Shown one piece after another: positions 58,381 to 64,000 of a stretch of DNA of 64,000 nt. The position numbers and the translations under genes are program-made. The notes beneath the pieces were generated by a model. That model made no database searches and was not told the DNA's origin. It saw only the letters and a list, made by a program, of their open reading frames with translations. Origin of the DNA: Afipia clevelandensis ATCC 49720 (lineage in GTDB: Bacteria; Pseudomonadota; Alphaproteobacteria; Rhizobiales; Xanthobacteraceae); the NCBI RefSeq assembly GCF_000336555.1, contig NZ_KB375281.1, forward strand, positions 749,803 through 813,802, read 5' to 3'. Each line of letters opens with the position of its first letter. Positions within the stretch are counted from its first letter, which is position 1.

Positions 58381-59649
58381 ATGAGCGAGCCAGTTCGGAC
58401 CCCACCTTTCGCGCCATTTGAATGGATGCTGTCGTCCCGCTACCTGCGGGCGCGGCGGAAGGAAGGGTTCATTTCGGTCATCGCCGGATTTTCGTTTCTC
58501 GGCATCATGCTCGGCGTGGCGACGCTCATCATCGTGATGGCGGTGATGAACGGCTTCCGGAAAGAGCTGCTCGACAAGATTCTCGGCCTCAACGGCCATG
58601 TGGTTGTGCAGCCGCTGGAATCGCCGCTGACCGACTGGAAGGAGGTCGCCGAGCGGATCAGCAAGGTCGACGGAATTCGCCTTGCGGCGCCGGTGGTGGA
58701 CGGGCAGGCGCTGGCGTCGTCGCCTTTCAATGCGTCGGGTGTGTTCGTGCGCGGCATCCGCGCGCAGGACCTCAACGCCGTCACCTCGATCGCCAAGAAC
58801 ATCAAGCAGGGCACGCTGCAAGGATTTGACGAGGGACAGGGCGTCGCGATCGGCCGCCGTCTTGCCGATCAGTTATCGCTGCGCGCCGGCGACAGCATCA
58901 CACTGGTCGCGCCGCGCGGCGCGGTGACACCGATGGGCACGACGCCGCGCATCAAGCCGTACAAGGTTGCAGCGGTGTTCGAGATCGGCATGTCCGAATA
59001 CGACGCCTCGTTCGTGTTCATGCCGCTGGCCGAGGCGCAGGCCTATTTCAACCGCGCCAACGACGTCACTGCCATTGAGGTCTATACCGTCAATCCCGAC
59101 AAGATCGACGTTTACCGCAAGTCGGTGACCGAGGCGGCGCAGCGGCCGATCTTCCTCGTCGACTGGCGGCGGCGCAATGCGACGTTCTTCAACGCGCTGC
59201 AGGTCGAACGCAACGTGATGTTCCTGATTTTGACGCTCATTGTTTTGGTGGCGGCGCTGAACATCGTGTCCGGCCTCATCATGCTGGTGAAGGACAAGGG
59301 ACAGGACATTGCGATCCTGCGCACGATGGGCGCCTCGCAAGGCTCGGTGATGCGGGTGTTCCTGATTACCGGCGCGGCCATCGGCGTGGTCGGAACGCTG
59401 GTCGGCTTTCTGCTCGGGCTGCTGGTGTGTCTCAATATCGAAAGCATCCGCCAGTTCATCTCGTGGATGACCAATACCGAACTGTTCTCGCCCGAACTCT
59501 ATTTCCTGTCCAAACTTCCGGCTGAAGTCGATGTCGGAGAAACCACGGCGGTCGTGATCATGGCGCTGACGTTATCGTTTCTGGCGACGCTGTATCCGTC
59601 GTGGCGTGCGGCGCGCCTCGATCCCATCGAAGCTCTGAGGTACGAGTGA
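58381..59649 (+). CDS. lolC: Lipoprotein-releasing ABC permease (LolC/LolE family)
   Basis: 422 residues. One N-terminal membrane segment (about 38-60), a large periplasmic domain, and three C-terminal membrane segments with the motif [19 protein letters not shown] and the closing [15 protein letters not shown]. It extracts lipoproteins from the inner membrane for LolA. Only one permease is encoded, so it may act as a homodimer. lolD follows directly. Confidence 0.93.
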
Positions 59650-59657
59650 GCGCACCG

Positions 59658-60356
59658 ATGGAGCAGGGGGAAAATGGCGTTCCGGTCGTGTATCTGCACG
59701 ACGTCCGCAGGCGCTACAAGCAAGGCGAAGCAACGCTGACCATTCTCGACGGCGCCAATCTGGCGCTGTGGGAAGGGCAGTCGGTGGCGCTGGTGGCCCC
59801 GTCGGGCACCGGCAAGTCGACGCTGTTGCACATCGCGGGTCTCTTGGAGCAGGCGGACGAGGGCGAGGTCTATGTCGGCGGCACCGCGACGTCGGGATTG
59901 TCCGACGTCGAACGCACGCAGATTCGCCGCACGGATATCGGCTTCGTCTATCAGTCGCATCGGCTGCTGCCGGAGTTCTCGGCGCTTGAAAACGTCATGC
60001 TGCCACAGATGATCCGCGGCCTGCCGAAGAAGGAAACCGTCAGGCGCTCGCAGGAAATCCTGGCCTATCTCGGCCTCGGCGAGCGCATCACCCATCGGCC
60101 GGCCGAATTGTCTGGCGGTGAACAGCAGCGCGTGGCCATTGCCCGCGCGGTCGCCAATGCGCCGCGGATATTGCTGGCGGACGAGCCGACCGGAAATCTC
60201 GATCCGGACACCGCAGAGCACGTCTTCAAGGCGCTCAATCAACTGGTGCGGGCGACGCGCGTCGCGATGCTGATCGCGACGCATAACATGGAGCTGGCGG
60301 CCCGCATGGACCGGCGCGTTTCACTCCAGAACGGCCACGTCGTCGAACTGGACTGA
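59658..60356 (+). CDS. lolD: Lipoprotein-releasing ABC ATPase LolD
   Basis: 232 residues. Walker [13 protein letters not shown]-loop [18 protein letters not shown] typical of LolD, ABC signature [14 protein letters not shown], Walker [13 protein letters not shown] and the H-loop. It powers lipoprotein release. An upstream GTG at 59646 overlaps the permease stop (GTGA) and has GAGG before it; it is equally possible as start. Confidence 0.92.
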
Positions 60357-60366
60357 GTGTGTGCGC

Positions 60367-60636
60367 TCAGTAGTAGCCGCGCTGGACCCGGCGGCGCGGC
60401 TGATACACCGGCTCATCGTCGCTGTAAGCGAAATAGGGATTGGCGTAACAGCCGGCGTAGGTGCCGGCCGCTGTTGCCTGACATTGCTGATAGGTCGAGA
60501 AGCGGCAGTCGCCCTGGCCGGTGGCGATGTCACGGCCCTGCAGGCAGAACGGATAGTTGCCTCCGGCCTGTGCCGGTGCGGACTGGACGGCGAAACCGGT
60601 GCCAAGCACCGCGAGGGCGAAAAATAGATTGCGCAT
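60367..60636 (-). CDS. DUF3551 family exported protein
   Basis: 89 residues. Signal peptide (cleavage near AQA-GGN, about residue 24), then NYPFCLQGRDIATGQGDCRFSTYQQCQATAAGTYAGCYANPYF with four cysteines, the DUF3551 pattern common in Bradyrhizobium relatives, and a Tyr/Arg-rich tail. Function unknown. Convergent with lolD. Confidence 0.85.
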   Translation of the reverse strand: MRNLFFALAVLGTGFAVQSAPAQAGGNYPFCLQGRDIATGQGDCRFSTYQQCQATAAGTYAGCYANPYFAYSDDEPVYQPRRRVQRGYY

Positions 60637-60800: not shown

Positions 60801-60828
60801 TTGACTCAAAGAACAAAAAAGGAACAAT
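60801..60828 (+). promoter_or_regulatory. Candidate promoter of the 32-aa peptide gene
   Basis: TTGACT at 60801-60806, a 16-nt spacer, then AACAAT at 60823-60828 (four of six consensus bases). The LexA-type boxes overlap its spacer and -10. Confidence 0.5.
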
Positions 60829-60843
60829 GTTCTTATTACGTTC
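60811..60843. promoter_or_regulatory. Two LexA-type SOS boxes
   Basis: GAAC-N7-GAAC at 60811-60825 and GTTC-N7-GTTC at 60829-60843, three bases apart and facing each other. GTTC-N7-GTTC is the established alphaproteobacterial LexA box; both halves are exact. They overlap the promoter of the small peptide gene. Confidence 0.8.
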
Positions 60844-60911
60844 TCATAGAGTCGTATCGGAGAGCCGGTCGTTTCGGATCGTCGATAGAGCGTCGAATAG
60901 GGAGTTCGGTC

Positions 60912-61010
60912 ATGTTGAAGACATTCGTTGAAGAAGCTGCTGCGTTGACCTCGGTGATCTTGTTCGTCGGAATGATCGCCATCTGGGCACAGGTCATTCC
61001 TCAGATGTAG
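60912..61010 (+). CDS. 32-aa single-pass membrane peptide under SOS boxes, SidA-like in type
   Basis: 32 residues: a short acidic/amphipathic N-terminus (MLKTFVEEAAALTS), one hydrophobic segment (about residues 12-27, VILFVGMIAIWAQV), and a tail VIPQM. GGAG lies 7 nt before the ATG. The gene sits 68 bp downstream of two exact LexA boxes. In size, topology and SOS control it resembles SidA of Caulobacter, a 29-residue SOS-induced division inhibitor that binds FtsW. I did not compare sequences. dnaE follows 188 bp later on the same strand. Confidence 0.7.
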   Translation: MLKTFVEEAAALTSVILFVGMIAIWAQVIPQM

Positions 61011-61021
61011 TGACGTGCCCG

Positions 61022-61040
61022 GCCCCGGACCATCCGGGGC
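61022..61040 (+). terminator. Hairpin between the 32-aa gene and dnaE
   Basis: GCCCCGGA (61022-61029) pairs with TCCGGGGC (61033-61040), loop CCA. There is no T-run; partial termination or an mRNA 3' end is possible. Confidence 0.4.
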
Positions 61041-61198
61041 TGGGGAAAACGATGATGGACCCGGCATAGATCGGCGGGTCCGCGTCTGCTGCATGGACAC
61101 CTGTTGTACAAGGCACCACCATCGACCCTCATGAGTCGTTCCGTCATCGCAAAAGGTTCACTGCGCCGGTGAGTCCTGCGAAGGTTGCCAAGGTCCAC

Positions 61199-64000
61199 AT
61201 GTCAAAAGCTGGTTCGCCGAAGCCGTCCGCACTCGATCCCGGATTCGTGCATCTGCACGTCCATTCGGCCTATTCGCTGCTGCAGGGCTCGATCACCATC
61301 GGCAAGCTGGTGGAACTCGCCAAGGCCGACCACCAGCCCGCGCTGGCGTTGACCGACAATGACAACATGTTCGGCGCGCTGGAATTCTCCGACAAGGTTG
61401 CCGGTTACGGCATTCAGCCGATCACCGGCTGCGCGACGGCGGTGGATTTCGGCGATCAGGACCCGGCGGCGCGCAATGCGCTTGCGCCGGCGCGGATTGT
61501 CCTGCTGGCGACCAATGAGGACGGCTACCGCAGCCTGATGAAGCTCAATTCCCGCGCGTTCCATGAGACGCCAGTGAACCATGCGCCGCATATCAAGATC
61601 GACTGGCTCGACGGCGAGACCGGCGGCCTGATTGCGCTGACCGGCGGACCGGAAGGCCCGATCGCGCAGGCGATCAATGCCGAGCAGCCGGCTCTGGCGC
61701 AGGCGCGCTGTGATGTACTCGCCAAACTGTTCGGCGACCGGCTTTACATCGAACTGCAGCGCCATGGCATGGAGAGTGAGCGCCGCTGCGAGTCCGCGCT
61801 GATCGACATGGCCTATGCCATGAGCGTGCCGCTGGTTGCGACCAACCAGCCGTACTTCGCCAGCGCCGACGACTACGAGGCACACGACGCGCTGCTATGC
61901 ATCGCGGGCGGGCGTCTGGTGTCGGAAACCGACCGCGACCAGTTGACGCCGGATCATCGCTTCAAGACCCGCGCCGAAATGGCGATGCTGTTCGCCGATC
62001 TGCCGGAAGCATTGGCGTCCACCGTCGAGATCGCCAGGCGCTGCGCCTACCGGCCGCGCACGCGCAAGCCGATTCTGCCGCGCTTCACAGTGGGCGGCGA
62101 CAATGCAGCCGACGGCGAAAACGCCGAGGCCGAGGAACTTCGCCGTCAGGCCGAGGATGGGCTTGCCTGGCGTTTGCAGAAGTACGGCCTGGCACCTGGC
62201 ACCACTGAAGAAGATTACGCAAAGCGTCTGGCGTTCGAGATCGACGTCATCACGCGCATGAAATATCCCGGCTACTTCCTGATCGTGTCGGACTTCATCA
62301 AACACGCCAAGTCAAAGGGCATTCCGGTGGGGCCGGGGCGCGGTTCGGGCGCGGGTTCGCTGGTCGCCTATGCACTGACCATTACCGACCTCGATCCGAT
62401 CCGCTTTGGCTTGCTGTTCGAGCGCTTCCTCAATCCGGAACGTGTCTCGATGCCGGATTTCGACATCGACTTCTGTCAGGACCGCCGCGGCGAAGTCATC
62501 CGCTACGTGCAGGAGCGGTATGGCCGCGAGCAGGTCGGGCAGATCATTACCTTCGGAACCTTGCAGGCGCGCGGTGTGCTGCGCGACGTGGGCCGCGTGC
62601 TGCAGATGCCATACGGGCAGGTGGACCGGCTGACCAAGCTGGTGCCGCAGAATCCGGCTGCGCCGGTGACGCTTGCAAAGGCCATCGAGAGCGAGCCGAA
62701 GCTGCAGGCGTTCCGCGACGAAGACCCTGTGATCGCGCGCGCGTTCGATATCGCGCAGCGTCTTGAAGGCCTGACGCGCCACGCCTCGACCCACGCGGCG
62801 GGTATCGTGATTGGCGACCGGCCTTTGAGTGAACTCGTGCCGATGTACCGCGATCCGAAATCGGACATGCCGGTCACCCAGTTCAACATGAAATGGGTCG
62901 AGCCTGCGGGCCTCGTGAAGTTCGACTTTCTTGGCTTGAAGACGCTGACCGTGCTCGATGTCGCGGTGAAACTGCTTAAGCAGCGCAACACCGACGTCGA
63001 TCTGGCGCATCTGCCGCTCGATGATAAGAAAAGTTACGAGATGCTGGCGCGCGGCGAAGTGGTCGGCGTGTTCCAGGTTGAAAGTCAGGGCATGCGCCGC
63101 GCGCTGGTCGACATGCGGCCGGACCGTCTGGAAGACCTGATCGCGCTGGTGGCGCTGTATCGCCCGGGTCCGATGGCGAACATCCCGACCTACTGCGCAC
63201 GCAAGCATGGCGACGAAGAGTCGGACTACATGCATCCGATGCTGGAGCCGATCCTGAAGGAAACCTTCGGCGTCATCATCTATCAGGAACAGGTGATGCA
63301 GATCGCGCAGGTGATGGCGGGCTATTCGCTCGGCGACGCCGACCTGTTGCGCCGCGCGATGGGCAAGAAGATCCGCGCGGAGATGGACAAGCAGCGCGAG
63401 ATTTTCGTCGCGGGCGCGACCAGAAACAATGTGCCGAAGGGGCAGGCCGAGACGATTTTTGAACTGCTGGCGAAGTTCGCGGATTACGGCTTCAACAAGA
63501 GCCACGCCGCGGCCTATGCGCTGGTGTCGTTTCAGACCGCCTATATGAAGGCCCATTATCCGGTGGAGTTTATCGCGGCGTCGATGACGCTCGACATGAA
63601 CAACACCGACAAGCTTTCTGAATTCCGCGCTGAGGCGCAGCGGCTCGGCATCAAGGTCGAACCGCCGTCGGTCAATCGCTCGGGTCCGACTTTCGAGGTC
63701 AGCGACAACACAATCTACTACGCGCTCGCCGCGCTCAAGGGCGTCGGCCAGCAGGCGGTGGAGATGATCGTCGAGGCGAGGGGTGATCGGCCCTTCACGT
63801 CGCTGGCCGATTTCGCCTCGCGCGTCAGCCCGCGCGCGATCAACAAGCGCGTGGTGGAAAGCCTCGCGGCCGCCGGTGCGTTCGATTGCCTCGACAGCAA
63901 CCGCGCGCGCGTGTTCGCAGGCGCCGATGCGATTATCGCGGCATGTCAGCGCAGCCACGAGGCCGCGACTAGTGGTCAGAACGACATGTTTGGCGGCATG
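61199..64000 (+). CDS. dnaE: DNA polymerase III alpha subunit, 3' end outside window
   Basis: 934 codons visible, no stop before the edge. PHP domain at the N-terminus (FVHLHVHSAYSLLQGSITIG), then the polymerase core with GPGRGSGAGSLVAYALTITDLDP, the catalytic acidic motif PDFDIDFCQDRRGEVIRYV, and LYRPGPMANIP. It is the replicative polymerase; normal length is about 1150-1180, so about 230 residues are missing. ATG at 61199 with AAGG upstream; an in-frame GTG at 61169 is possible. Its position behind the SOS boxes suggests it may be partly damage-inducible. Confidence 0.95.
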   Translation, partial: MSKAGSPKPSALDPGFVHLHVHSAYSLLQGSITIGKLVELAKADHQPALALTDNDNMFGALEFSDKVAGYGIQPITGCATAVDFGDQDPAARNALAPARIVLLATNEDGYRSLMKLNSRAFHETPVNHAPHIKIDWLDGETGGLIALTGGPEGPIAQAINAEQPALAQARCDVLAKLFGDRLYIELQRHGMESERRCESALIDMAYAMSVPLVATNQPYFASADDYEAHDALLCIAGGRLVSETDRDQLTPDHRFKTRAEMAMLFADLPEALASTVEIARRCAYRPRTRKPILPRFTVGGDNAADGENAEAEELRRQAEDGLAWRLQKYGLAPGTTEEDYAKRLAFEIDVITRMKYPGYFLIVSDFIKHAKSKGIPVGPGRGSGAGSLVAYALTITDLDPIRFGLLFERFLNPERVSMPDFDIDFCQDRRGEVIRYVQERYGREQVGQIITFGTLQARGVLRDVGRVLQMPYGQVDRLTKLVPQNPAAPVTLAKAIESEPKLQAFRDEDPVIARAFDIAQRLEGLTRHASTHAAGIVIGDRPLSELVPMYRDPKSDMPVTQFNMKWVEPAGLVKFDFLGLKTLTVLDVAVKLLKQRNTDVDLAHLPLDDKKSYEMLARGEVVGVFQVESQGMRRALVDMRPDRLEDLIALVALYRPGPMANIPTYCARKHGDEESDYMHPMLEPILKETFGVIIYQEQVMQIAQVMAGYSLGDADLLRRAMGKKIRAEMDKQREIFVAGATRNNVPKGQAETIFELLAKFADYGFNKSHAAAYALVSFQTAYMKAHYPVEFIAASMTLDMNNTDKLSEFRAEAQRLGIKVEPPSVNRSGPTFEVSDNTIYYALAALKGVGQQAVEMIVEARGDRPFTSLADFASRVSPRAINKRVVESLAAAGAFDCLDSNRARVFAGADAIIAACQRSHEAATSGQNDMFGGM

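Follow-up and report, generated by a model that had tools for sequence, protein, structure and literature searches.

In Caulobacter, the chief inhibitor of division under SOS control is SidA. This inner-membrane protein of 29 residues interacts with both FtsW and FtsN, and either ftsW(F145L) or ftsW(A246T) overcomes it, the proposed cause being that the active state of FtsW/I/N is favoured (excerpt of PMC4211646). The inhibitors YneA, SosA, SulA, DivS and ChiZ are described as mutually unrelated (same excerpt of PMC4211646). The literature searched, which did not extend to the original SidA paper, yielded no report of SidA outside Caulobacter. Here we describe a gene of Afipia clevelandensis ATCC 49720 that probably encodes a SidA-like DNA-damage checkpoint peptide, that is, a LexA-controlled brake on division directed at the divisome.

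The gene lies in a 64,000-nt stretch of contig NZ_KB375281.1 (hereafter, the window); the host genome is a single contig of 4.4 Mb. The open reading frame of this putative SidA-like SOS micro-protein (60912..61010, + strand) starts with ATG at 60912, stops with TAG at 61010 and translates into 32 residues, MLKTFVEEAAALTSVILFVGMIAIWAQVIPQM. A single hydrophobic segment, with a best 15-residue Kyte-Doolittle mean of 2.5, is the predicted membrane segment, which places the product among proteins of about 30 residues that are predicted to cross the membrane once. A ribosome-binding site, GGGAG (60900..60904, + strand), is recognizable in the sequence 7 nt 5′ of the ATG, and purine-rich stretches precede the ATG in the listed relatives as well. 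These features agree with an earlier note on this DNA, which had described a 32-codon gene with a ribosome-binding site and one membrane segment.

A consensus scan places a sigma-70-type promoter at 60801..60828 on the + strand, with the −35 element TTGACT at 60801–60806, a 16-nt spacer and the −10 element AACAAT at 60823–60828; one promoter-like site was found between 60600 and 61300, against a mean of 0.2 in shuffled sequences. Two LexA boxes accompany it. Box 1, GAACAAAAAAGGAAC (60811..60825), is an exact GTTCN7GTTC on the − strand that lies in the promoter spacer and reaches into the start of the −10 element, and box 2, GTTCTTATTACGTTC (60829..60843, + strand), is an exact match immediately 3′ of the −10 element. 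The combined operator thus reads GAAC-N7-GAAC-AAT-GTTC-N7-GTTC, a pair of boxes that face one another across the −10 element. The earlier note had placed two exact boxes at these coordinates and had stated that they overlap a promoter; both boxes are exact and correctly placed, with the promoter overlapped by box 1 and directly followed by box 2. As bare string matches, single boxes are no more frequent in the window than expected by chance (2 observed and 2.35 expected in 64 kb), and an argument for the significance of the boxes from their count alone was accordingly rejected. What exceeds chance is the pairing of the boxes 18 bp apart on the promoter and the conservation of this pair in 115 of 119 loci.

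Upstream of the promoter, the open reading frame list gives a lolC-type gene (58381–59649, + strand) followed by a lolD-type ABC ATPase gene (59601..60356, + strand; Pfam ABC_tran, 2.6e-29). The latter is separated from the SOS promoter by an 89-aa DUF3551 gene on the − strand (60367–60636; PF12071, 2.9e-23). Just 3′ of the peptide stop codon, RNA folding gives a hairpin of 12 pairs with no U-run (61018..61044, + strand), a possible terminator or processing site before dnaE; the 166-nt stretch containing it folds as a whole only z −1.6 better than shuffled sequences, and a consensus scan found no terminator between the peptide gene and dnaE. The downstream neighbour, dnaE (61169..64000, + strand), encodes the DNA polymerase III alpha subunit, as assigned by Pfam PF07733 and the PHP, finger and HHH_6 domains, and runs off the window. 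Its start is that of the mechanical open reading frame list and, as listed, lies 158 nt 3′ of the peptide stop codon on the same strand.

The peptide was found in 33 of 61 genomes, including its own: in 26 of 29 genomes of the genus (own included), in 6 of 8 other members of the family and, elsewhere in the order, in 1 of 24. The three genomes of the genus that lack it are 83–84% complete. Named relatives that carry the peptide, among the best 80 of 251 confirmed loci, belong to Afipia, Bradyrhizobium, Rhodopseudomonas, Tardiphaga and Nitrobacter. Conservation was analyzed in a set of 119 loci (L001–L039 and L060–L139), in which some contigs occur twice. These loci were chosen because they encode the peptide, and the search pattern used to find it again in them required 31–33 residues, so that the presence of the open reading frame in 119/119 is partly by construction; the lengths, the boxes and the codon pattern are not. 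The peptide has 32 residues in 116 loci and 33 in three. Both boxes are exactly 18 bp apart in 115 loci; the exceptions are a spacing of 16 bp in two (L075 and L077), one box in L030 and no exact box in L113, from Nitrobacter. In each of the 97 distinct upstream sequences, TTGAC starts 9–11 nt 5′ of the first box.

Among the 95 distinct open reading frame sequences, the mean pN/pS is 0.19 in frame, whereas shifting the frame gives 1.8 and 3.1; variability at the three codon positions is 0.11, 0.05 and 0.32. Given the in-frame ratio, the amino-acid sequence matters; E7, E8, A9, A10, L12, S14, L17, F18, G20, W25 and A26 are invariant in the 21 distinct peptides. The comparison shows that the gene is real and that its protein sequence is under strong purifying selection. 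The earlier note had held that a lack of conservation of the peptide or the boxes in relatives would speak against its reading; the box pair retained in 115 of 119 loci and the pN/pS of 0.19 show the opposite.

In the whole genome, GTTCN7GTTC has 142 matches compared to 95 for the reversed control pattern. Eight box loci of the genome were inspected, most of them chosen by eye for AT-rich spacers, and in four of these a known SOS gene follows the box: lexA, uvrA, radA and an imuA-like gene, the last with a model match below its curated cut-off. The organism therefore appears to own an ordinary alphaproteobacterial LexA regulon. With a box on its promoter, and the same box at lexA and other SOS genes, the window gene is by sequence a predicted member of that regulon. 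Elsewhere in the genome, two LexA boxes with AT-rich spacers lie 788 bp apart at 926118 and 926906 (L170:1500 and 2288), one of them near a 91-codon open reading frame on the other strand.

Among 297 genomes of the order, a profile built from 21 peptides matched 57 at E ≤ 0.1, 25 of them at E ≤ 1e-4. For loci L031–L055, counted without L046, which is mis-anchored at a contig end, an exact box lies upstream in 23 of 24, and a dnaE motif follows 221–788 nt 3′ of the peptide start in all 24. Two weak matches, L058 and L059, also precede dnaE when read by eye, L059 without an exact box. Locus L056 is a stretch inside a long unrelated open reading frame. In two genomes, second, weaker peptide matches at some distance from the first (G731:C3:315102-315185 and G113:C13:5582-5665) are possible paralogues.

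Over the class (385 genomes), the Rhizobiales profile alone gave no clear match outside the order, and most of its weak matches lay inside longer open reading frames. At least three weak matches were directly upstream of dnaE, in genomes G118 (itself of the order), G568 and G336. Because the profile search of the class failed while some weak matches sat before dnaE, the class was scanned with dnaE as the anchor. A DnaE match was obtained in 198 of 212 class genomes, and up to 620 bp upstream was read in the best 148 of the 198. An exact LexA box occurs in 33 of these 148 regions; in 26, including that of the window, it is accompanied by a membrane micro-ORF with a purine-rich site, and in the remaining 7 no micro-ORF qualifies. 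The 26 regions span 15 families. Each of five control patterns with this shape is present in 1–4 of the 148 regions and in none (0) together with such a micro-ORF. The pair of exact box and micro-ORF is absent from 122 of the 148 regions; the arrangement before dnaE is thus widespread over the class but patchy. The motif [KREQG][DE]xx[AGTE][LMA], picked after the peptides were seen, is present in 14 of the 26 peptides that belong to neither reference group, against a background of 1 in 78 micro-ORFs and 78 in 3279 windows.

Caulobacter SidA is found at the same place. In C. crescentus, dnaE is CC1926 (excerpt of PMC1839093) and sidA is CCNA_02004 (excerpt of PMC10769358). The two genes are adjacent, which was put to the test by dnaE-anchored reading. 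In Caulobacteraceae, the family of genome G395, DnaE was found in 58 of 60 genomes and 50 upstream regions were read. Caulobacter lies in this family, in which CtrA of genome G744 is 100% identical to C. crescentus CtrA. An exact box is present in 29 of the 50 regions; 26 of these have a membrane micro-ORF, 22 with a 29-aa reading, e.g. MARIARETLALASVVGFVWMMCSVAYLAA. The exact box is absent from the other 21, a number that includes two regions (L311 and L328) unanchored on dnaE and scored as box-less. Many Caulobacter loci within L363–L388 carry GAACN7GAAT instead of the exact box before the SidA peptide, and scans for the exact pattern therefore undercount sites there.

Within the genus Caulobacter, the peptide was detected in 60 of 61 genomes by a query profile with three members from the same genus. 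A peptide of 29–30 aa directly precedes dnaE in 41 of 42 Caulobacter loci (29 residues in 39 and 30 in two). In a reading of Caulobacter loci, the dnaE motif follows 135–235 nt after the peptide start. Two of these dnaE-upstream peptides match NF033228, 'cell division inhibitor SidA', with 71.2 and 59.7 bits at a cut-off of 35, and the dnaE-upstream peptide of Caulobacter is therefore SidA. Box arrangement varies in the family: eight of the 50 regions (L326, L332, L334, L336, L347, L350, L353 and L356) have two LexA boxes of the same orientation at exactly 18 bp, a spacing equal to that of the opposed pair in the window, and two boxes occur at spacings of 25, 16 and 25 bp in L309, L313 and L315, respectively.

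The profiles of the window group and of Caulobacter align over 28 columns, nearly end to end (hhalign E 7e-6, probability 84), and a narrower profile, A1, aligns with the Caulobacter profile at E 2.5e-5. None of 300 column-shuffled controls reached the real score of 23.9, the best shuffled score being 20.0. Scored by itself with the Caulobacteraceae profile, the window peptide reaches 6.4 bits, a value also attained by 18 of 3279 hydrophobic windows and 1 of 78 micro-ORFs. A third group of boxed peptides upstream of dnaE, from genomes G335, G470 and G568, scores 11.9–17.3 bits with the Caulobacteraceae profile, more than any of the 3279 hydrophobic windows or 78 micro-ORFs. With the Rhizobiales profile the same group scores 7.4–17.3 bits, values reached by 49–97 windows and one micro-ORF; for that profile the background is biased against the claim, as it includes loci fetched with the Rhizobiales profile itself. 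This third group possibly bridges the window peptides and SidA.

Curated family models do not label the window peptide. It has no match in NCBIfam even at E 10 and does not reach the 35-bit cut-off of the SidA model (NF033228), and searches of Pfam, NCBIfam and PHROGs gave no significant family, the best PHROGs match having E 0.19. The SidA cut-off is passed in none of the 297 genomes of the order, the own genome giving only one match, at E 0.99. Among 14 named control genomes, one passes this cut-off, and Caulobacter vibrioides is among seven that give a signal. Twenty weak SidA-model matches in the order (L453–L472), chosen for short open reading frames or for a recurring match to model positions 2–14, were rejected as artefacts; none of the 20 lies beside dnaE or has a box, and all read IRxARKSLTLVSVGPV or close to it. 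Such recurring sub-threshold matches are a trap if the SidA cut-off is lowered.

In the broad sense of SidA-like, then, a sequence relationship is detectable between the profiles and weak for the single sequence, and a gene that follows a LexA box and immediately precedes dnaE is common to the window, its relatives and Caulobacter. Because place, operator, size and profile agree and the equivalog cut-off does not, the window peptide is best described, as judged from sequence, as a SidA-like, syntenic and diverged relative and not as an equivalog by the NCBI model. The proposal of the earlier note, a SidA-type inhibitor, is supported with respect to sequence relationship, place, boxes and selection; the peptide falls short of the SidA equivalog cut-off.

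The reading of the gene as a checkpoint peptide rests on the gene itself, selection on its protein, the conserved operators, the boxes at SOS genes, and the place and profile shared with Caulobacter SidA; from these we infer that LexA represses the gene in vivo and that the peptide inserts into the membrane, targets FtsW and arrests division. In undamaged cells, LexA on the two promoter-covering boxes would keep the gene off, and the facing arrangement should keep a harmful product tightly repressed. The same-orientation 18-bp box pairs in 8 of the 50 Caulobacteraceae regions suggest the same need for repression, met differently. Damage would activate RecA and lead to self-cleavage of LexA, both boxes would be freed and the promoter would fire. 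The 32-residue peptide would then be made as a single-pass protein of the inner membrane and bind the late divisome (FtsW, with FtsI and FtsN), as SidA does in Caulobacter, holding septal wall synthesis inactive, and the cell would grow as a filament until repair is done.

FtsW of A. clevelandensis is the only match of its genome to the FtsW/RodA family, which makes for a clean target question, and carries F and A at the positions equivalent to F145 and A246. Numbered on their own sequences, the Caulobacter FtsW rows show F145 and A246 as well, in further support of their identity. As evidence, the agreement at the two positions is weak because they are partly kept in RodA-like rows (A246 in 2/2 and F145 in 1/2) and because G118 has S at 246.

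TisB of Escherichia coli is an SOS-controlled peptide with a single membrane segment; it acts on the membrane, as DinQ does, and neither is known to occur beside dnaE. TisB has an antisense RNA partner. DinQ of E. coli, likewise SOS-controlled and with a single membrane segment, has such a partner too (excerpt of PMC3567139). The window gene, of the same size class and with the same LexA box and single hydrophobic segment, could be a peptide of this kind that disturbs the inner membrane and slows growth after damage with no divisome target. We regard this as unlikely, since the near-fixed length, the strict conservation of residues and the place and profile in common with SidA fit a protein–protein target better.

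Less likely again is that the open reading frame is a leader or coupling frame and the SOS promoter serves to raise dnaE after damage. The 158 nt between the peptide stop codon and the listed dnaE start on the same strand, the short distance in Caulobacter and the strong hairpin between the two genes would suit such an arrangement. A mere leader, however, has no need of its amino acids, which matter here by the pN/pS of 0.19, and the distance from peptide start to dnaE motif varies widely, as the 24 loci of the order show.

A SidA-like inhibitor is also to be weighed against an SOS regulator of another envelope machine, such as the nearby Lol system or polar growth, and not of division. The lolC- and lolD-type genes are nearby on the 5′ side, separated from the peptide gene by one small gene of the opposite strand, and bacteria of this order grow from the pole (excerpt of PMC8546619). 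This is improbable, given that the constant neighbour is dnaE, present in 41/41 Caulobacter loci against 27/41 for a lolD-type motif within 1.5 kb, and that FtsW is what SidA acts on in Caulobacter, where it occupies the same place. A chance open reading frame behind chance boxes, a reading that the chance frequency of single GTTCN7GTTC matches in the window would allow, is hardly credible in view of a box pair that 115 of 119 loci retain, the strong purifying selection and a recurrence at the same place over the class with zero in the five control patterns.

In an order in which none of 297 genomes passes the cut-off of the NCBI SidA model, the locus supplies a concrete gene, operator and address for a candidate SOS brake with which rhizobia, Rhodopseudomonas, Nitrobacter and their relatives may stop division after DNA damage, and a place-based rule, a LexA box with a membrane micro-ORF before dnaE, for finding more. 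We lean, by a small degree, towards the view that Alphaproteobacteria had, as their ancestral checkpoint on division after DNA damage, a LexA-controlled single-pass micro-protein encoded just before dnaE, of which Caulobacter SidA would be only the first-studied branch; the protein would have drifted fast behind a fixed operator and place, and many lineages would have lost it or changed the operator. If so, family models see each branch alone, which leaves the peptide unlabelled outside Caulobacteraceae.

Among known systems, DidA of Caulobacter crescentus is, as proposed here for the window peptide, a damage-induced single-pass inhibitor of the FtsW/I/N complex, but it has 71 residues, is SOS-independent and is induced by DriD (excerpt of PMC4211646). 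YneA of Bacillus subtilis, SosA, SulA, DivS and ChiZ have in common with the proposed role of the window peptide an SOS-controlled block of division, and YneA also interacts with FtsW (excerpt of PMC13396833). The closest counterpart is Caulobacter SidA, which like the window peptide is encoded behind a LexA box directly before dnaE and has one hydrophobic segment, with 29 residues compared to 32 (excerpt of PMC4211646). SidA and the window profile have in common an acidic residue and A-L-x-S-V, which lead up to the membrane segment and run into it, whereas the window peptide has EE where Caulobacter mostly has RE, and a WAQ-x-IPQ tail. The operators differ as well: two opposed LexA boxes on one promoter in the window, and single or same-orientation boxes in Caulobacter.
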